Source: Vreelandella songnenensis
Lineage (GTDB): Bacteria; Pseudomonadota; Gammaproteobacteria; Pseudomonadales; Halomonadaceae
NCBI RefSeq assembly: GCF_003002925.1
Contig: NZ_PVTK01000010.1
Coordinates: 1-64,000, forward strand
DNA: 64,000 bases
Direction of reading: 5' to 3'
Position 1 is the first letter of the stretch, and each line of letters starts with the position of its first letter. The translations under genes were made by a program, and so were the position numbers. The notes under the pieces are model-generated. The model searched no databases. It was not told the origin of the DNA and saw only the letters and a program-made list of their open reading frames with translations. Shown here in pieces: positions 1,859 through 12,410 of the stretch.

Positions 1859-2842
1859 TTATGGATGGGCGTTCTCAGCAGAAGCGTACTTCACTATATG
1901 CTCGACAAACCGGCGCACCTTGCCAAGCTCCCCCAGGTGTTCGGGATAGACAAGATAGTACGCGCTTTCGCTGTGCAGGCGATGAGGCCAGGCCAATGTA
2001 AGCCGGCCAGCCGCCAGCTCTTCATCCACGGTAAAGTGTGGCACCAGCGCCACGCCCCCACCTGCCATGGCCGTGCGCACCAGCATGGGGAAGGTTTCAA
2101 AACGGGTGCCGTGATAGCTACGATCGGTGGCGATTTCCTGGCCTGCAAACCAGTGGTGCCAGGCATCCGGACGGGTGGAAAGATGCAGTAGCGACAGTTG
2201 AGCCAGGTCGCTTGCCGCCTCGATGGGGTGCTCGTCCAGCAGCGAAGGGGCGCACACGGCCACCATTTCTTCGTCCACCAGCTTGTGGCAGGCCAGGTCA
2301 GGCCAGCTGCCATGGCCGTAGAACAGCGCGATGTCGATATCCTGCTGTTCAAGATCGAAATCTTCCACACGATCATGAAACTCCAGGCTGATGCCCGGGT
2401 TCGCGGCCAGAAACGCCGGCAGCTTGTCTGCCAGCCAGCGGCTGCCGAAGCTGGGTAGGGTCGCGACCTTGAGCACTTCGCTGTTGCCGCTATAAGTCAT
2501 GATAGCCTGAGTCGACATCTCGATCTGAGCGAGCACCTTGCGCACGTCGCTTAGAAAGATGGCGCCCTCGGGCGTCAGCAGCAAACTGCGCCGTACGCGA
2601 CGAAACAGCTTGTGCTGGAGGATGGACTCAAGATGAGCGACTTGCTTGCTCACGGCACTCTGGGTCAGGCTCAGCTCATCCGCCGCCCGGGTAAAGCTCA
2701 TATGGCGGGCGGCCGCTTCAAAACACTGCATGGCGGCGGTGGAAGGAAGATTGCGTGATGCCAAGCGATGAGCTCCTGATGACCTGTGAACCGCCCCGAT
2801 GGCTGGGCACCGGGGCGATGTAAGAGGCTGATCATAACTCAT
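1859..2842 (-). CDS. LysR-family transcriptional regulator (GcvA-like)
   Basis: The protein has about 327 residues from the start chosen here. An N-terminal winged helix-turn-helix carries FTRAADELSLTQSAVSKQV, followed by a LysR substrate-binding domain. The ATG at 2842 overlaps the TGA of the upstream TRAP permease gene (ATGA, 2839-2842), which argues for translational coupling. An earlier start at 2896 would place 18 extra residues inside the permease and is less likely. Its place as last gene of the binding protein-permease operon suggests it senses the transported solute or a product and controls that operon. The ligand is unknown. Confidence 0.85.
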   Translation of the reverse strand: MSYDQPLTSPRCPAIGAVHRSSGAHRLASRNLPSTAAMQCFEAAARHMSFTRAADELSLTQSAVSKQVAHLESILQHKLFRRVRRSLLLTPEGAIFLSDVRKVLAQIEMSTQAIMTYSGNSEVLKVATLPSFGSRWLADKLPAFLAANPGISLEFHDRVEDFDLEQQDIDIALFYGHGSWPDLACHKLVDEEMVAVCAPSLLDEHPIEAASDLAQLSLLHLSTRPDAWHHWFAGQEIATDRSYHGTRFETFPMLVRTAMAGGGVALVPHFTVDEELAAGRLTLAWPHRLHSESAYYLVYPEHLGELGKVRRFVEHIVKYASAENAHP

Positions 2843-4689
2843 GAAGCGAGTGGCTTCGCGTCCTGAAACGCATCCTTGCGGCGCGACTGCCACCATCCCA
2901 CTGCGCCCATGGCGAGCAGGCCCAGTCCGCTGGTAAGCAGTTCCGGCACCACCATGGCAAGCCCCGCGGCCAAGAGTATCAGGCGCTCCCAGACACGGGA
3001 ATCGCGAACAAAGTAGCCCAGCAGAGCGCTGCTCACGCCCATGATCCCCAGCAGTGAAAAGATCAGGGCGCTGATCAAGCCTAGTGGTGTAGGGTCGACC
3101 ATCACCAGCATCGGGTTGTAGATGAACGCGTAGGGAATGATGAACGCCCCGATGGCCAGTTTGACTGCCGTAAAGCCGGTCTTCATCGGATTCGCCTGGG
3201 CGATGCCCGCGCCGGCAAAGGCGGCCAGACAGACGGGAGGCGTAATATCCGCGATGATGCCGAAGTAGAACACGAACAGATGCACCGCCATGGGCGGCAG
3301 GCCGAACTCGTTGATCAGCGCCGGGGCGGCAATGGTGGCGGTAACCACATAGTTGGCCGTGGTGGGAAGCCCCATGCCCAGTACGATACAGGCCACCATG
3401 GTGAAGATAAGCGCAAGTATCAGCACGCCATCGGCCAGGCTGATGATACCGGCGGCGAATTTGGCGCCCATGCCGGTCATGCCTACCACACCGGCAATAA
3501 TGCCTGCACAGGCCACGGCGGCAATCACGGGCAGGGCCACGCGCGCACCTTGTTCAAATATATCCAGTATGCCCCTCAACGATGGTCGCGTTTCCTTGCG
3601 CACCAGACTCACGGCGAAGGCGCAGGCGATACCCAGCAGGGCGGCCCGTTGAGCAGTGAACCCGACGCTGATCGTGGTCACGATGACCAGCAGCGGCAGC
3701 AGCATGTAGCCCTTTTCCAGCATCAGCTTGCGCTTGCTCGGCAACTGATCCTTGGGAAGGCCCAGAATGCGGTGACGCTTGGCTTCGAAGTGAACGCCAA
3801 TGAAGATACCCGTGAAATACAGAATCGCCGGAATGAGCGCGGCGAACATGATTTCCCGGTAGGAGACCCCCACGTATTCCACCATGATGAACGCCGCCGC
3901 GCCCATGAGGGGCGGCATGATCTGCCCGCCGGTAGAGGCCGAGGCTTCCACGGCGCCCGCCACTTCGGGCTTGAAGCGCGCATTCTTCATCATGGGGATG
4001 GTGAACGAGCCCGAGGCCACGGTATTGCCGATAGAGCTTCCGGAAATCATCCCCTGTAGCGAGCTTGCGATGACCGCTGCCTTGCCGGCACCACCGGTAA
4101 AGCGGCCGGTGAGGGCAAACGCCAGGTCATTGAAGAAGCGGCCCACGCCGGTGTGCATCAACACAACGCCGAAGAACAGGAACAGGAAGATAAAGCGTGC
4201 GGATATTTGCAGAGGCGTGCCAAACACGCCGCTTTCCCTGAACCACAGGTAGGGTGACACCTGCTCGAGCGCGAACCCGGGATGGGAAAGCAGAGGGCTG
4301 GGTATGAGATTGCCAAACAGCGCGTACAGGATGGCCAAGGTGGCCATCACGACGATGGGCATGCCAACGGTGCGGCGGGTGGCCTCCAGGACAAACAGCA
4401 CGCCGAGCACGGCAATCGTCAGGTCTACGGTCGAGTAGCCCGTGATACGGGCACGCAGAACCTCTTCGTAGAAGATGATTTTATAGTAGGCGGCAAACGT
4501 GGCGGCGAACGCCAGCACGATGTCGTACCAGGGCACGCCTTGGCGGGGGTCAGCACCGCGGGTGGCCGGAAACAGGATGAAGATCATCCCGAGCGCCATG
4601 CCCAGATGCACCGCGCCCTGTTGCTGCGAAGGCAAGGTGCCAAAGTAGGCGGTGTAGAGATGGAAACAGGTCAACGATACGCCCATCAA
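2839..4689 (-). CDS. TRAP transporter fused permease (4TM/12TM, TAXI-associated)
   Basis: This is a membrane protein of at least 616 residues fusing the small (DctQ-like) and large (DctM-like) TRAP permease subunits, the form that works with TAXI binding proteins. Hydrophobic segments run through the whole length, and the large domain contains the conserved GMISGSSIGNTVASGSFTIP and GMGLPTTANYVVTATI stretches. The interval given starts at TTG 4689, the first start codon in the uninterrupted frame. The same frame continues upstream as DEASLLEKYDRESQIRS, a typical N-terminus of this family, and then hits TAA inside an A9 run at 4782-4790. The authentic start is therefore probably GTG 4796 in another frame. 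It lies downstream of the TAXI gene and overlaps the LysR gene. Confidence 0.85.
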   Translation of the reverse strand: MMGVSLTCFHLYTAYFGTLPSQQQGAVHLGMALGMIFILFPATRGADPRQGVPWYDIVLAFAATFAAYYKIIFYEEVLRARITGYSTVDLTIAVLGVLFVLEATRRTVGMPIVVMATLAILYALFGNLIPSPLLSHPGFALEQVSPYLWFRESGVFGTPLQISARFIFLFLFFGVVLMHTGVGRFFNDLAFALTGRFTGGAGKAAVIASSLQGMISGSSIGNTVASGSFTIPMMKNARFKPEVAGAVEASASTGGQIMPPLMGAAAFIMVEYVGVSYREIMFAALIPAILYFTGIFIGVHFEAKRHRILGLPKDQLPSKRKLMLEKGYMLLPLLVIVTTISVGFTAQRAALLGIACAFAVSLVRKETRPSLRGILDIFEQGARVALPVIAAVACAGIIAGVVGMTGMGAKFAAGIISLADGVLILALIFTMVACIVLGMGLPTTANYVVTATIAAPALINEFGLPPMAVHLFVFYFGIIADITPPVCLAAFAGAGIAQANPMKTGFTAVKLAIGAFIIPYAFIYNPMLVMVDPTPLGLISALIFSLLGIMGVSSALLGYFVRDSRVWERLILLAAGLAMVVPELLTSGLGLLAMGAVGWWQSRRKDAFQDAKPLAS

Positions 4690-4796
4690 CGTGATGAGCC
4701 ACGCCCATTTGCCTAGCTGCAGCGGCGAGCGTATCTGAGACTCACGGTCATATTTCTCTAATAGCGATGCTTCGTCAGGCGTTTTTTTTTATCCAC
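4690..4796 (-). other. Frameshifted N-terminal extension of the TRAP permease
   Basis: Read in the permease frame this stretch encodes KKTPDEASLLEKYDRESQIR and then SPLQLGKWAWLIT, which joins the annotated permease without a break and looks like the conserved start of fused TAXI permeases. No ATG, GTG or TTG is available in this frame before 4689. The only plausible start with a ribosome binding site (GAGG, seven or eight bases upstream) is GTG at 4794-4796. It is out of phase by one base across the A9 run. Adding one A to the run, or a -1 ribosomal slip, would fuse the frames. Confidence 0.6.
4782..4790 (-). repeat. A9 homopolymer at the start of the TRAP permease gene
   Basis: Nine consecutive A residues on the coding (minus) strand directly follow GTG GAT and precede CGCCTGAC. 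The heptamer A AAA AAC at its end is a classic slippery sequence. With ten A residues the GTG frame would continue into the permease. Confidence 0.8.
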
Positions 4797-4817
4797 GGTC
4801 AAACCTCATGCGGATGA

Positions 4818-4841
4818 CGCCGCAAGCCTAGGCCTGCGGCG
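4818..4841 (-). promoter_or_regulatory. Near-perfect palindrome between TAXI and permease genes
   Basis: A 24-bp near-perfect inverted repeat (CGCCGCA...TGCGGCG, centred on CCTAGG) lies in the short gap after the binding-protein stop and before the permease start. As RNA it would form a strong hairpin without a U-tract. It may protect the upstream message or lower permease expression relative to the binding protein; an operator role is also possible. Confidence 0.5.
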
Positions 4842-4851
4842 GTCAGGAAGA

Positions 4852-5847
4852 TTAGTCAGCAAGGTCGCTCAAGCTTTCGATGTTGGAACGCTCGCGGGTC
4901 ACCACCTGGATGACTTCGGGGTAGATGTGACCGATAAAGGCGACGTTGTCGATGGCGCCACTCTCGAACTCGCCGCGGCCTTCAACGGCATCCTGAGCCG
5001 GGGCGTGAACCGTCATGCCCAGGTCCATGCTGTCGTCGCGAATGCTCACCAGGTTCTCGATGGAAGCGCCGGTTTCTATGTTGGTAAAGTTCTGACCCTC
5101 CAGATAGCGGTTCCAGATAGTGGCCATCTCACCGCCCAGGGGGTAGTAGGTGCCGCCCTGGCTGCCGGTGCCCAGCACGTACTCACGCTTGGACTCGATA
5201 TCACCCAGTTCGGCTACCGGGTTGTCGACGGTCAGGCCCTGCTCTTCGTAGTAGCGCTTGGCGCCCGGGTGAATGGGCAGGCCTTCCGAGCCGTTCAGCG
5301 CGTTTTCCAGCGTCATGAAGGCGGATTGGGCGTGGGTATTTTCCTCGGCATGTTCGTGCATCAGCCGCGCCAGCTCGTAGCCAAGCGCTTCGTCGATGGT
5401 ATTCGTGTTGCCGACCAATACGGCATAGGCAGTGATGGTTTCAACGTCCTCGTTCTGAAAGTCGTAGCTGCCGGCCGGAATCGTAAAGCGCCGGTAGGCG
5501 CTGTTGGCCTCGATATAGTCGATTGCTGCGTCGCTCAGGCCGATCAGGCGAACATCACCACTGGAGGCCTGCAGGTTCTCGATACTGCCTGAAGGCAGCC
5601 CAAGAATGCCGATCGAGATATCAATATTGCCATCCTGCACCCCGTCGAGTGCCGCGCCAAAACCTTCCTGGTACGTGTTGTACTTGTCGCTGTCGATGCC
5701 GTAAGCATCAAACAGCAGTTGGGAAACGCTCTGCGTCGTACTGGCCGGGGGGCCAATCGCGATATTGGGTTTACTGTCGCTGCTGCATCCAGCGAGTAGA
5801 AGACCGGCACTCAAGCCACAGAAGACCTTGGACAGGGAAGGCTTCAT
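4852..5847 (-). CDS. TAXI-family TRAP solute-binding lipoprotein, circularly permuted
   Basis: This 331-residue secreted lipoprotein has a signal peptide ending in the lipobox LLAGC (Cys21). Start ATG 5847 has a good AGGAG site. TAXI binding proteins normally begin with the GTGSxGGTYYP motif and end near LPIHPGAxRYYEE. Here the order is reversed. The part that should follow SDLAD (IAIGPPASTTQS, residue 29 on) comes first and runs to the natural end, PIHPGAKRYYEEQG (residues 191-204). A linker of about 20 residues follows, then the natural N-terminus YVLGTGSQGGTYYPLGG (223-239), ending at IESLSDLAD (323-331). Each half occurs once, so this is a circular permutation cut at the interdomain hinge. 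Known TAXI proteins bind glutamate, 2-oxoglutarate and related acids. It is the first gene of the operon with the fused permease and LysR. Confidence 0.85.
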   Translation of the reverse strand: MKPSLSKVFCGLSAGLLLAGCSSDSKPNIAIGPPASTTQSVSQLLFDAYGIDSDKYNTYQEGFGAALDGVQDGNIDISIGILGLPSGSIENLQASSGDVRLIGLSDAAIDYIEANSAYRRFTIPAGSYDFQNEDVETITAYAVLVGNTNTIDEALGYELARLMHEHAEENTHAQSAFMTLENALNGSEGLPIHPGAKRYYEEQGLTVDNPVAELGDIESKREYVLGTGSQGGTYYPLGGEMATIWNRYLEGQNFTNIETGASIENLVSIRDDSMDLGMTVHAPAQDAVEGRGEFESGAIDNVAFIGHIYPEVIQVVTRERSNIESLSDLAD

Positions 5848-8803: not shown

Positions 8804-10471
8804 ATGACTAATCCCCGCCCCCTCGCTGAGCTACAACGCTTTCGCCGTGCACGCGCCAAGCGCCGCTGGTACAGGCGTAGCTTTCGCTTACAGGTCATGC
8901 TGCTGGTGGGGCTTTTGCTGGCTGGCATGCTACTGGCTCAGGGCACATATCTCAATCATCGCAAGGCGGATATTATCAGCCACCAGATGGGCGAGCGCGC
9001 ACTTGCCGTAGCGAAAACCGTGGCCGGCATGCCGCAAATAGTGAGTGCCTTCGATACTCCGGACCCGTCCATGATCATTCAGCCGCTGGCCGAGCGGGTG
9101 CGGCTTGAAACCGGCGCGCGCTACGTGGTGGTGGGCAATGCGCAGTCCATCCGCTACTCGCATCCGGTGCCGGAGCGCCTGGGCGAGGCAATGGTGGGGG
9201 GAGATAACGACCAGGCGCTGATTTACGGGCAATCCTACGTTTCAAAAGCGACGGGCACGCTGGGGACGGCCATGCGTGGAAAAACGCCCATCTGGGACGA
9301 AGAGGGCAACATCATCGGGGTGGTGTCCGTCGGCTTCATGATGGACCGCGTTGAGATGGACGTGGCGCGCTATACCAACCTTGGCTGGGCGCTGGTGGCG
9401 CTGATGATCGTGCTGGGGTTTGCCGGCGCGTACTGGCTTTCCCAGCACTTGAAGCGCGTGATTCTGGGATTAGAACCCTATGAAATTGCCCGCCTGGCCA
9501 TGGAGAAGGAAGCCATCCTGCAGTCGATTCATGAAGGCATCCTGGCGGTCAACCGCGATGGCCATATCACCCTGGTGAATCAGCAGGCCCGGCGGTTTCT
9601 CAATCTGCCCGATGAGCACGTGCTCCTGGGCCAGCCGATTCAGGAGGTAGTACCCAATACGCGCCTTCTGGAAGTGCTCCGCCACGGCGAGCAGGAGTTC
9701 GACCAGCAAATGTGGCTGGGCGACCACCCGGCGGTGGTCAACCGGGTGCCGATTCTGCACGACGGTGAAATCGAAGGCGCCGTGGCCACGTTTCGCAGCC
9801 GGCGGGAAATCATCGATCTGTCTCAGGCGCTTACCCAGGCCAGCCGCGATGTGGATATGCTGCGCGCTCAGGCTCACGAATTCTCCAACAAGCTGTACAC
9901 GATTTCCGGCCTGCTGCAGCTCAAGCGCGTGGAAGAGGCGCTGGCCCTGATCCATCACGAAACCGAACGCGCACAAAAGCAGATGAGCTTTTTGATGCGC
10001 CATGTGGCCGATACCGTGCTCAGCGGTACGTTACTGGGTAAACTGACCCGCGCCCGGGAGCTTGGAGTGGCCATGGAGATCGACGAGCAGAGCTCGCTCG
10101 CCTGCCCGCTTACCGCGACCGGCCAGGAAGTGATGATGAGCGTGGTGGGCAACCTGCTGGACAACGCCTGCCACGCCGCGTTGAACGGGCCGAACGGGGA
10201 TTCTCCCAAGGTGCGGCTGTTCCTGACCGACCTGGGTGAGCAACTGTTGGTCGAGGTAGAAGATAACGGCCCTGGCGTGCCGGAAGCGCACGCTGAATCG
10301 ATCTTTCAGGAAGGCTTTTCGACCAAGACCGGCAAGCACTGCGGCATTGGGCTGTCTCTGGTGGCGCGCCTGTGCCGCCAGCATGGTGGGGCCGTGACGC
10401 TCGAGGAGAGCGAGCTGGGCGGGGCGTGCTTTATCGCCGTGCTCGACCGCTCCCTGTGCGCCGCACCCTGA
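8804..10471 (+). CDS. Sensor histidine kinase, DcuS/CitA/DctS family
   Basis: This 555-residue membrane kinase has a first transmembrane helix at residues 28-46, a periplasmic PDC/CitA-type sensor domain (about 47-190, with RLETGARYVVVGN and AMRGKTPIWDEEGNIIGVVS), a second helix at about 193-213 and a cytoplasmic PAS domain (about 235-330). The kinase core follows, with phosphoacceptor His358 in AHEFSNKLYTISGLLQL, N-box VVGNLLDNACHAAL, DNGPGV and GIGLSLVARLCRQHGG. Members sense C4-dicarboxylates, citrate or other carboxylates. The response regulator follows at once and the tctCBA carboxylate transporter next, so the signal is probably the solute moved by that transporter. Confidence 0.9.
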   Translation: MTNPRPLAELQRFRRARAKRRWYRRSFRLQVMLLVGLLLAGMLLAQGTYLNHRKADIISHQMGERALAVAKTVAGMPQIVSAFDTPDPSMIIQPLAERVRLETGARYVVVGNAQSIRYSHPVPERLGEAMVGGDNDQALIYGQSYVSKATGTLGTAMRGKTPIWDEEGNIIGVVSVGFMMDRVEMDVARYTNLGWALVALMIVLGFAGAYWLSQHLKRVILGLEPYEIARLAMEKEAILQSIHEGILAVNRDGHITLVNQQARRFLNLPDEHVLLGQPIQEVVPNTRLLEVLRHGEQEFDQQMWLGDHPAVVNRVPILHDGEIEGAVATFRSRREIIDLSQALTQASRDVDMLRAQAHEFSNKLYTISGLLQLKRVEEALALIHHETERAQKQMSFLMRHVADTVLSGTLLGKLTRARELGVAMEIDEQSSLACPLTATGQEVMMSVVGNLLDNACHAALNGPNGDSPKVRLFLTDLGEQLLVEVEDNGPGVPEAHAESIFQEGFSTKTGKHCGIGLSLVARLCRQHGGAVTLEESELGGACFIAVLDRSLCAAP

Positions 10472-10504
10472 TCGTTCAAACGACCACGACTGCGAGGAAA
10501 CGTG

Positions 10505-11236
10505 ATGTCTACAGCGCAATACGGCATTTTGGTCGTTGAAGACGATTTTCGCATTGCCGATATTCACAAGGCGTTCATCGAGCAGAGCGAAGGCTTTTAT
10601 ATCGCAGGCGTTGCCCGCAATGGCAGCGAAGCCAGAGCACTGATGGCCGAGCGCGCGGCCAGCATCGACCTGGTATTGCTGGACGCCTACCTGCCGGACG
10701 TGGAAGGCCTGGAGCTTTTATGGGCGATCCGGCGCGACCATACTCATGTGGATATCGTCATGGTGACCGCTGCCCGTGAGGTCGATACCATCTCCGAGGC
10801 GCTGCGCGGCGGCGTGTTCGACTACCTGATCAAGCCCATTGAAGCTGCCCGCATGGGCCAGATGCTGGCCCGCTTTCGCCGCGAGCGTGAGGCGCTTGCC
10901 GGGCGCAACGAGATGAATCAGGACGAGCTGGATCATGTATTCACCCGCCTGCAGCCCGGCGAGACGCCGCGTCCGACGGCGCGGACCCTGCCCAAGGGGA
11001 TCGACCGGCTGACCCTGCGCCGGGTCATCGAGGCCCTGGCGGATGAAGCCGCGCCACTGACCGCGATGCAGGTAGCCCGCAGCATGGGCGCCAGCCGCTC
11101 GACGGCCCGCCGGTATCTGGAATTTCTGGTGGCCGAGCAGGGCGTCAGCGCCGAACTCGGCTACGGCGATGTGGGGCGCCCCGAGCGGCGCTACCGGGTA
11201 CTCGATACCGCCCATGCCTGGCTTGAATCTCTTTAG
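10505..11236 (+). CDS. Response regulator, DcuR/CitB/DctR family
   Basis: This protein of about 243 residues has an N-terminal receiver domain: acidic EDD near residue 13, phosphoacceptor Asp in VLLDAYLPDVEG near residue 60, and Lys in YLIKPIE near 111. A CitB/DcuR-type C-terminal helix-turn-helix carries MQVARSMGASRSTARRYLE. ATG 10505 is preferred to GTG 10502 because GAGGA lies six bases upstream. It pairs with the sensor kinase 33 bases upstream and is followed by the tripartite tricarboxylate transporter genes, its probable target. Confidence 0.9.
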   Translation: MSTAQYGILVVEDDFRIADIHKAFIEQSEGFYIAGVARNGSEARALMAERAASIDLVLLDAYLPDVEGLELLWAIRRDHTHVDIVMVTAAREVDTISEALRGGVFDYLIKPIEAARMGQMLARFRREREALAGRNEMNQDELDHVFTRLQPGETPRPTARTLPKGIDRLTLRRVIEALADEAAPLTAMQVARSMGASRSTARRYLEFLVAEQGVSAELGYGDVGRPERRYRVLDTAHAWLESL

Positions 11237-11260
11237 CCTGAAGACAGCCTGCCACACGCG

Positions 11261-11311
11261 TGAACAAAATGAACAAAATGCCCATAAAGGACTTTTTGTC
11301 TTTTATGGGCA
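11261..11311 (+). promoter_or_regulatory. Tandem 9-mer plus inverted repeat upstream of tctC
   Basis: Two exact tandem copies of TGAACAAAA (11261-11269 and 11270-11278) are followed directly by the inverted repeat TGCCCATAAA/TTTATGGGCA (11279-11288, 11302-11311). The block lies 100-150 bases upstream of tctC and just after the regulator gene. It could be the response-regulator binding site, with the inverted repeat acting as an attenuator or terminator. Confidence 0.45.
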
Positions 11312-11411
11312 GAAGCTTGTCGTTCAGGGCAAGGGTCTTCTAACGTTCGCGGCGTAACCACGACAAAATAACAGTGGACCACACAACAACATTTAAATGT
11401 GGAGAACGCCA

Positions 11412-12410
11412 ATGACCTCGCTTTCCTTGAAGCGCCTAGCCGTGCTTGCCCTGCCGATGGCTGCTCTGACAACAATCGCCACCGCCGCTCAGGCCCAGGA
11501 ATGGACGCCGAGCAAGTCGATCGAATTCGTCGCACCGGCGAACCCGGGCGGCGGCTGGGACACCCTGGTACGCACCGTATCGCGCGTCATCCAGCAAGAA
11601 GGCCTGGCGGACAAGAACTTTGCCGCCATCAACGTACCCGGCGGCGGCGGTGCGGTGGCCTGGGCACAGATTGCCCGCGACAGCGGCAACCCGCACAAGC
11701 TGTTTGCCACCAGCCCGCCAATGATTCTGGTGCCGCTGGCCGGCGCCTCGCGCTACGACCACACCGATTTCACGCCGGTGGCCCGTATCAATACCGACTA
11801 CTCGATCATTCTGGTAGCGGCGGATTCCGAGTATCAGGACGTCAATGACCTGTTTACCGCGCTGAAAGAGAATCCCCGCCTGAGTGTAGGCGGCGGCAGT
11901 GCACCGGGTTCCATGGATCACATCTCGATTGCGGGTCTTGCTTCCGCCGCCGGTCTGGATGCTTCTGCGGTGAACTACATTCCGTTCTCCGGCGGTGGCG
12001 ATGCCATGACCAACCTGATGGGTGGCCATATCGAAGCCGTCATCACCGGTGCCGGTGAATCCGTCGGCCAGCTGGGCGAAGGCAGTCAGCTGCGCGCGCT
12101 CGGCGTCTCTTCCGAAGAGCGTCTGGGCGGTGCCCTGGCTGAGGTGCCTACCTACCAGGAGCAGGGAATCGATTACTCCTTCGATATCTGGCGCGGCGTG
12201 ATGGGTGCACCGGATATGCCTGAAGAAGCCGTTGCCTACTACGAAGAGCTGTTCGCGGAAATGCTGGAAACCGACGCCTGGCGTCAGGCCAGCGATCAGC
12301 TTGGCTGGATCGATGCCTACCAGGATAGCGAAGAGTTCGGTGCGTTTCTGGATGAACAGCAGGAGCAGTTCAGCAGCGTGCTGAGCGACCTGGGCCTTCT
12401 GCGCCAATAA
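11412..12410 (+). CDS. tctC: Tripartite tricarboxylate transporter, periplasmic binding protein TctC
   Basis: This 332-residue secreted protein has a signal peptide (about 1-28, ending AQAQ) and the TctC/BugT fold. Typical signatures are SIEFVAPANPGGGWDTLVR near the mature N-terminus, VNVPGGGGAVAW-like residues and YIPFSGGGDAMTNLMGGHIEA. The ATG at 11412 is chosen over the upstream ATG 11397 because GGAG lies seven bases before it and the signal peptide then starts cleanly. It delivers a tricarboxylate or related organic acid to TctAB. First gene of tctCBA, directly downstream of a CitA/DcuS-type two-component system. Confidence 0.9.
   Translation: MTSLSLKRLAVLALPMAALTTIATAAQAQEWTPSKSIEFVAPANPGGGWDTLVRTVSRVIQQEGLADKNFAAINVPGGGGAVAWAQIARDSGNPHKLFATSPPMILVPLAGASRYDHTDFTPVARINTDYSIILVAADSEYQDVNDLFTALKENPRLSVGGGSAPGSMDHISIAGLASAAGLDASAVNYIPFSGGGDAMTNLMGGHIEAVITGAGESVGQLGEGSQLRALGVSSEERLGGALAEVPTYQEQGIDYSFDIWRGVMGAPDMPEEAVAYYEELFAEMLETDAWRQASDQLGWIDAYQDSEEFGAFLDEQQEQFSSVLSDLGLLRQ

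Follow-up and report, generated by a model that had tools for sequence, protein, structure and literature searches.

The locus described here raises the question of whether the receptor of a TRAP importer can work when the two halves of its chain have exchanged places. The gene lies on the reverse strand at 4852–5847 (ATG at 5847, stop codon at 4852–4854) of a stretch of 64,000 nucleotides, hereafter the window, and encodes a permuted TAXI-type lipoprotein of 331 residues that is predicted to bind a solute. A preliminary description, made from the sequence alone, had proposed a TAXI receptor with swapped halves behind a lipoprotein signal, and had considered it permuted and probably functional. 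The swapped halves are borne out by family models and by solved TAXI proteins, and the wider reading finds support in these segments, in a confident predicted fold and in a single clade shared with the permeases. The sequence and the predicted model very likely reflect a TAXI receptor that is circularly permuted, carries a lipid anchor and works within a TRAP importer.

Membership of the family is clear from two models, TIGR02122 (218 bits, above its curated cut-off of 84.35) and PF16868 (NMT1_3; 207 bits), both of which match the receptor in two stretches. In each case the best stretch is residues 28/29–204, which align with the final part of the model. Thus, alignment to the family gives two high-scoring segments in swapped order, and a single colinear full-length match to TIGR02122, which would have spoken for an ordinary TAXI protein, was not obtained. 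The other marks of such a receptor are in place: an export signal with a lipobox, judged by pattern only, and an adjoining gene for a fused TRAP permease (reverse strand, 2839–4788, its frame open from 4788), which matches TIGR02123 with 707 bits over 2839–4689 and also matches DctM. Four further TAXI genes are matched in the same genome; three contain both halves in ordinary order, and in the fourth (L006) the match is limited to one half. Since the order of the segments lies outside the curated definition of TIGR02122, the receptor is filed here as a permuted variant. As the score lies far over the curated cut-off, ordinary annotation hides the permutation, and the protein will be mishandled by any alignment built on the assumption of colinearity.

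The order of the segments can be followed on solved proteins. In a search of these, receptor residues 29–205 match positions 119–297 of the 9ibo chain and residues 224–330 match positions 6–115; seven TAXI sequences of solved structures match in two stretches, with swapped order in all three of the alignments shown. The former C-terminal part (residues 28–205; 5233–5766, reverse strand, as are all parts of the gene) corresponds to TIGR02122 positions 144–320 and to 9ibo 119–297, and contains most of lobe 2, the second hinge strand and the end of lobe 1. It is followed by a new linker from the old C-terminus to the old N-terminus (residues 206–223; 5179–5232), delimited from the aligned permuted proteins, among which the spacing from EEQGL to GTGS is 20 or 22 residues in 91 of the 93 proteins measured. 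The former N-terminal part (residues 224–330; 4858–5178; 9ibo 6–115) then runs from the GTGSxGGTYYP block to SLSDLA. The first hinge strand (residues 302–318; 4894–4944), placed by the predicted structure and by alignment to hinge 116–131 of VcGluP, is now near the C-terminus.

Where the chain was opened can be read against VcGluP, for which the accessible part of PMC11574862 gives lobe 1 as residues 29–115 plus 268–328, lobe 2 (domain 2) as residues 132–254, and the hinge strands as residues 116–131 and 255–267. Its numbering was taken as chain position plus 28 and was checked by eye on S40, V44, Y45, Y46, S75, Q93, H123 and E125. By these boundaries, the cut falls between VcGluP residues ~144 and ~148, which is inside lobe 2 and 13–16 residues past hinge strand 116–131. 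The earlier proposal that the cut lies at the interdomain hinge therefore does not hold on this numbering; the cut is near the hinge and within domain 2. In the permuted chain, the first core strand of lobe 2 thus comes first, and the first hinge strand, followed by a short helix, comes last.

The structure prediction suggested in the preliminary description gave a confident fold (pLDDT 87.2, pTM 0.82). In this model, strand 28–31 is the first of the mature part, and the long strand 302–318 and helix 327–330 are the last. Sequential aligners superpose only receptor residues 25–212 on the TAXI protein 9ibp (Z 13.7, 28% identity), and the best Foldseek match, likewise 9ibp, covers 202 columns of alignment, against 331 residues in the chain. 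When the full length is considered, OpuAC (2b4l; Z 14.7, 208 residues, rmsd 3.0, 11% identity) is matched best. Sequence homology to OpuAC was not detected: a search to E 1 returned the seven TAXI sequences and two weak hyaluronidase matches, and no OpuAC. Many type II proteins are also matched over the whole chain at Z ~11, but kinship with them was not accepted, since a lobe swap is likelier; such matches probably reflect the swap of two similar lobes in a pseudo-symmetric fold. A control model of the ordinary TAXI protein at L060, built from three sequences, was too poor for use (pLDDT 51.9).

An unusual gene in a draft genome of 34 contigs might be an artefact of assembly or sequencing, and both the oddity itself and the state of the assembly would fit that explanation. 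Its probability is nevertheless negligible, as the same order is found in other genomes. Among 129 confirmed relatives in named genomes, 80 were examined, and all 80 carry the order as one segment in one open reading frame, with 59–94% identity and a match that begins no later than residue 29 and ends no earlier than residue 326. In addition, several genomes of the genus with a full-length match consist of a single contig, among them G028, G042, G047 and G050. Thus, the locus is not an assembly error, and the rearrangement at this locus that the preliminary description had allowed for is excluded by the orthologues. These form one clade, and their permeases agree with it.

The permuted form is found mainly in two groups. 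In Halomonadaceae it is found in Vreelandella, Halomonas, Billgrantia and Bisbaumannia, and in Bacillaceae and Caryophanaceae it is found in Oceanobacillus, Virgibacillus, Siminovitchia, Psychrobacillus, Sporosarcina, Bhargavaea and others; single copies come from one Pseudomonas and from one Castellaniella metagenome bin. It is present in at least 19 of 82 genomes of the genus of the window and in at least 30 of 275 of its family, the genome of the window being included in both counts, and in at least two of the 398 in the sample of its phylum (this genome and one of its genus). Around G082, another carrier, the corresponding counts are at least 12 of 22 in its family, at least 10 of 299 in its order and at least one of 398, G082 itself, in the sample of its phylum; in the family of G086 the form occurs in at least 30 of 159 genomes. 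All these tallies are lower bounds wherever the best candidates alone were scored. In the plasmid collection there is no clear permuted copy: 325 records match, the best places are all below 60% identity, and each of the 30 matches listed of the 325 is joined from two pieces. The DNA of the operon has no near match in that collection either.

Unpermuted sisters of these proteins are also found. The genome G349 carries a protein in ordinary order (L144) whose two halves show 60% and 55% identity, and two genomes of the family of G082 itself contain ordinary-order relatives. In the order of G082, a further 41 of the 299 genomes reach E 1e-60 or better with just one of the halves, which is the pattern given by relatives in ordinary order; 17 of these were fetched (G931 and G932 among them), and all 17 have the ordinary order. 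The same is true of all 18 proteins L193–L210 (15 from the order of G082, three from the family of G086), which also have the lipobox pattern and a permease on the same strand at the locus, with 52–62% identity to the permease of the window; more distant TAXI permeases are 34–47% identical to it. L144, L145 and L146 likewise combine the ordinary order with a lipobox and a permease. In general, close unpermuted homologues in Bacillota show 38–60% identity per half.

For trees of the whole protein, the halves were restored to the ordinary order beforehand. In a tree of 49 rows, the 27 permuted rows form one clade with support of 100/97, and in another of 55 rows, with 21 close and seven more distant unpermuted proteins, the support is 100/98. 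The C-half alone also gives the permuted clade (99/92), as does the permease (100/98), for which the nearest unpermuted protein is that of L144, followed by those of L145 and L146. With the N-half alone the clade is weak (91/41), and L144 groups with L145/L146, unlike in the other trees. For the 49-row and half trees, permuted rows that were at least 82% alike were thinned (from 92 to 27), repeat fetches of the same place were removed (seven unpermuted reading frames, six loci) and one unpermuted row, L118, was left out by choice; the half trees also omit the long-branch rows L004 and L005. The permease tree covers the loci with a long enough adjacent permease, which leaves out one permuted and seven unpermuted loci.

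These trees bear on whether the two halves come from one gene. The protein might instead have arisen by fusion, with each half taken from a different TAXI gene, and the weak N-half clade, with L144 beside L145/L146 rather than in a stepwise position, is what such a fusion could produce. By contrast, the nearest unpermuted proteins are the same for either half, with similar identity (60% and 55% for L144), both half trees give one permuted clade beside the same sisters, and the permease tree tells the same story; a fusion is therefore very improbable. Thus, both halves trace to one ancestral gene that has unpermuted relatives, with weak support when the N half is taken alone. As the data alone do not root the trees, it might also be argued that the permuted order came first and gave rise to the ordinary one. 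This is hardly conceivable, since all the more distant TAXI rows and the solved structures have the ordinary order, and a single change on the tree suffices.

The simplest history compatible with the sequences is, then, a single permutation in place in Bacillota, where an ordinary TAXI lipoprotein gene beside a fused permease was rearranged once with the permease staying next door. The usual model for circular permutation is tandem duplication followed by trimming of the ends, and the gene may have taken this route, with both ends trimmed; no intermediate of duplication or trimming was seen. After the permutation, the gene stayed with its permease, largely kept its pocket residues and later passed to Halomonadaceae. 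In the 49-row tree the Halomonadaceae rows are nested within a Bacillota group (100/99), and because of this nesting, horizontal transfer is the most likely way in which the operon reached Halomonadaceae.

The residues of the pocket can be compared with those of proteins in ordinary order. Canonical TAXI receptors such as VcGluP (8s4j/9ibo) and TtGluBP (1us4/1us5) belong to the same family over both halves, work with a fused permease and share the residues equivalent to Tyr45, Ser75 and Glu125, and the same bilobed fold is expected for the window receptor. They differ from it in having the ordinary order, and at the position of Q93, which is Val280 here. The equivalents of VcGluP Y45, S75 and E125 (Y234, S262 and E311), together with T38 and G83, are kept in all 27 permuted proteins and in all 21 close unpermuted sisters, whereas V280 and G80 are found in 27 of 27 and 18 of 21, respectively (14 more distant unpermuted rows were also used in this comparison). 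VcGluP Y200 and M201 correspond to Gly80 and Ile81. According to the accessible part of PMC11574862, loss of Q93 lowers the affinity of VcGluP 990-fold, so glutamate, as this key residue is replaced by Val, was dropped as the likely ligand. To judge by its residues, the pocket is thus largely unaltered by the permutation and is probably not a glutamate pocket. One variable position is residue 37, the equivalent of the ligand-contacting G156, which lies near the new N-terminus: it is Gly in 18 of 21 unpermuted sisters, and Glu (14), Gly (6), Ala (4) or Thr (3) in the 27 permuted proteins.

The point at which the receptor is tied to the membrane does appear to change. The lipoprotein signal comprises residues 1–21 (5785–5847), ends in LLLAGC (lipobox LAGC) and would place the lipid on Cys21, which is nearly invariant (90% or more) in the 27 aligned permuted proteins. 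The lipobox is present in 96 of the 97 permuted reading frames scored, by pattern and not by a signal-peptide predictor; in L030, which missed the motif pattern used for lipobox and linker scoring, it is visible by eye. In the permuted proteins, the lipid Cys precedes the first IGP motif by 6–18 residues, so that the permutation would have relocated the tether, formerly at the beginning of lobe 1, to that of lobe 2, with the pocket unchanged. A permuted receptor in the Castellaniella metagenome (L104:1896-2954) has a signal without a lipobox, so the permuted order does not depend on the tether. The idea that the permutation created the lipid anchor was dropped, as the unpermuted sisters are already lipoproteins. 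Nor is a lipid-anchored receptor unusual here, as had been supposed: all 18 of the close unpermuted sisters L193–L210 have a lipobox, and lipoproteins are reported, in the available text of PMC12344293, to be more frequent among TAXI than among DctP-type receptors.

As to the destination of the lipoprotein, sorting in E. coli depends on Asp at position +2. None of 23 rows (the window and L027–L049 except L030; 22 from Halomonadaceae and one from Pseudomonas) has Asp at +2 of the lipid Cys, and all 23 have an acidic residue within +2 to +4. By analogy with the E. coli rule, the Halomonadaceae-type receptor, a lipoprotein of Gram-positive origin, might go to the outer membrane.

The preliminary description had also credited the gene with a proper signal peptide and operon. 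The lipobox signal and the adjacent permease agree with this, but the start of the permease is out of frame with its body. A GTG at 4794–4796, preceded by GAGG, is followed by one codon and then by a run of nine A residues (4782–4790), and the frame it opens stops after 12 codons; the permease frame, in turn, is closed by a stop codon where the run begins. In the window there is no ATG, GTG or TTG in the permease frame between the run and EKYDRES, a segment whose conservation extends to Bacillota. The first start codon past the run, TTG at 4689, would lose this segment and probably part of the first membrane helix. Between the two genes, a hairpin is predicted on the reverse strand at 4816–4844 (101-nucleotide fold of -31.2 kcal/mol, z -2.16; 3 of 200 shuffles were equally stable).

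This arrangement is conserved in Halomonadaceae-type loci. Exactly nine A residues, out of frame, are found at 28 of 31 distinct receptor–permease junctions, which were taken from the window, 30 genomes of the family (its own included) and 23 named loci, with identical ones merged, and which are distinct sequences rather than independent events. The remaining junctions are one with ten A, in frame, and two without the run, also in frame. Sequencing error was dropped as the cause of the break, since it is common to 28 of the 31 junctions. Outside Halomonadaceae, the permease start of permuted copies is in frame at every locus where a neighbouring permease carrying the marker motif could be identified. 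At the unpermuted locus L144:4635-4748 (G349), no ATG, GTG or TTG precedes the EKYDRE segment of the permease. The run occurs once in the 64 kb window, where 0.19 are expected, and at least once in 18 of 100 shuffles; as it is not rare by chance, the case for a slip site rests on its conservation.

A conserved homopolymer thus joins two frames in most junctions, and the conserved out-of-frame start implies transcriptional slippage or frameshifting, as far as can be read from sequence. An alternative that concerns just the permease start, namely a -1 shift of the ribosome on the run of A or else an unrecognised start codon, has an appreciable probability, albeit well short of even. A-AAA-AAA/G is a slippery site for ribosomal shifting, and 27 of the 31 junctions would be corrected equally well by one more A or by a -1 shift of the ribosome. 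Nevertheless, one junction (L044/L167) needs the other phase, which slippage of RNA polymerase can supply and a fixed -1 shift cannot, and an unrecognised start has no ATG, GTG or TTG to use ahead of EKYDRES in the window; slippage of the polymerase is favoured on this account. In the literature searched, nothing was found on transcriptional slippage with TRAP transporters. The slip site, which coincides with the third permease codon, would have been gained after transfer to Halomonadaceae. If so, most transcripts or ribosomes would yield only the receptor and a minor fraction the permease, so that the break and the hairpin could hold the permease well below the receptor and set the ratio between the two. 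Such a conserved out-of-frame start would represent a testable way of setting this ratio.

The apparent need for frameshifting in most Halomonadaceae permeases could also mean weak function, and the out-of-frame start in 28 of the 31 junctions might be taken as a sign that the permuted protein folds but acts as a sensor, or is decaying, instead of serving transport. Such a role, or decay, is very unlikely. A permease of one cluster accompanies the receptor in 77 of 80 loci, as the next predicted gene in 76; 89 columns are invariant in the 27 aligned permuted proteins; the body of the permease stays open and its tree matches that of the receptor; and permuted copies outside Halomonadaceae have, as noted above, in-frame starts wherever a marker-motif permease is adjacent.

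Permuted binding proteins are already known in ABC systems. In the accessible part of PMC2395249, glycine-betaine-binding proteins, including OpuAC (2b4l), are reported to be circularly permuted relative to each other; OpuAC of Bacillus subtilis thus represents a natural permutation in a type II binding protein, as does the window receptor, from which it differs in its ABC system, its betaine ligand and its identity of 11%. MglB-2 of Treponema pallidum, described in the available part of PMC4990184 as a circularly permuted, tethered ABC binding protein for which tethering was suggested as a possible cause, shares the natural permutation and the lipid tether, and differs in its type I fold and its ABC system. 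Its origin is less clear than that of the present receptor, since alignment of its permuted part with its relatives is poor. Among TAXI lipoproteins, a further unusual architecture is that of TAXI-GltS of Bordetella (PMC12344293), which has extra domains and a different permease, and for which permutation is not mentioned in the available part of that source. The closest comparison is with L144, L145, L146 and L193–L210, which are like the window receptor in the lipobox, a permease of their own and nearly the same pocket, and differ in the ordinary order of the chain and in a tether at the start of lobe 1. In line with the earlier claim, no described permuted TAXI protein was found in the literature searched, with most subscription journals outside its scope.

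OpuAC is a Gram-positive lipoprotein. It may be proposed, tentatively and as a joint reading that could well fail in one of its parts, that the window receptor is a further independent permuted and tethered receptor after OpuAC and MglB-2, and the first in a secondary (TRAP) importer in the literature searched; that the shift of the anchor is the sole effect of the permutation; and that the run of A sets the ratio of receptor to permease and was added after transfer. Natural permutants and unpermuted forms can be compared here at ~40–60% identity, and their permeases match and their pockets are almost alike. Such pairs allow a clean test of the suggestion, made for MglB-2 (PMC4990184, accessible part), that permutation is an adaptation of binding proteins to being tethered to the membrane. 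The receptor also raises the questions of why such proteins are re-wired and where the tie to the membrane must sit.

The receptor may act like any other Venus flytrap protein, binding its solute on the outer side of the membrane and passing it on to the fused permease. Some indication of the solute comes from neighbouring genes. Next to the permease, in the same direction, is a LysR-family regulator close to GcvA (1859–2896, reverse strand; 284.7 bits against a cut-off of 288), whose cluster is found in 19 of 22 Halomonadaceae loci. On the forward strand are HglS, the 2-oxoadipate dioxygenase/decarboxylase (437–1798; NF049974, 750.9 bits, cut-off 550), and the C-terminal end of a YdiJ-type D-2-hydroxyglutarate dehydrogenase (1–435; NF049975 positions 892–1017 of 1018, E 8e-49), a gene that leaves the window and whose fragment is below the whole-protein cut-off. 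Together with 2-aminoadipate transaminase, these enzymes lead from 2-aminoadipate to 2-oxoglutarate. At least one gene of the three clusters is present in 18 of the 22 named Halomonadaceae loci, in varying arrangements (transaminase 12, HglS 10, YdiJ 5), the cluster names resting on one tested member each (L033 for transaminase and YdiJ, the window for HglS). In the other 57 named copies (56 from Bacillota, one from Castellaniella) the respective counts are two, zero and zero, and one of those two loci, L063, is closer to glutamate-semialdehyde aminomutase. A C5–C6 dicarboxylate of the route from 2-aminoadipate through 2-oxoadipate to D-2-hydroxyglutarate is thus a possible substrate in Halomonadaceae, a suggestion from gene neighbourhood that is somewhat more apt to be wrong than right.

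Other transporter genes lie near permuted operons. At L056, L060 and L061, an ordinary TAXI operon of receptor, small protein and permease is upstream of the permuted one, and the small protein at L056 is a DUF1850 protein. In the window, positions 8804–12410 encode a sensor kinase nearest to DcuS/MalK and a regulator nearest to DpiA/DcuR, all below the curated cut-offs, and these are followed by a TctC-type receptor, which places a second tripartite-transporter locus close by.
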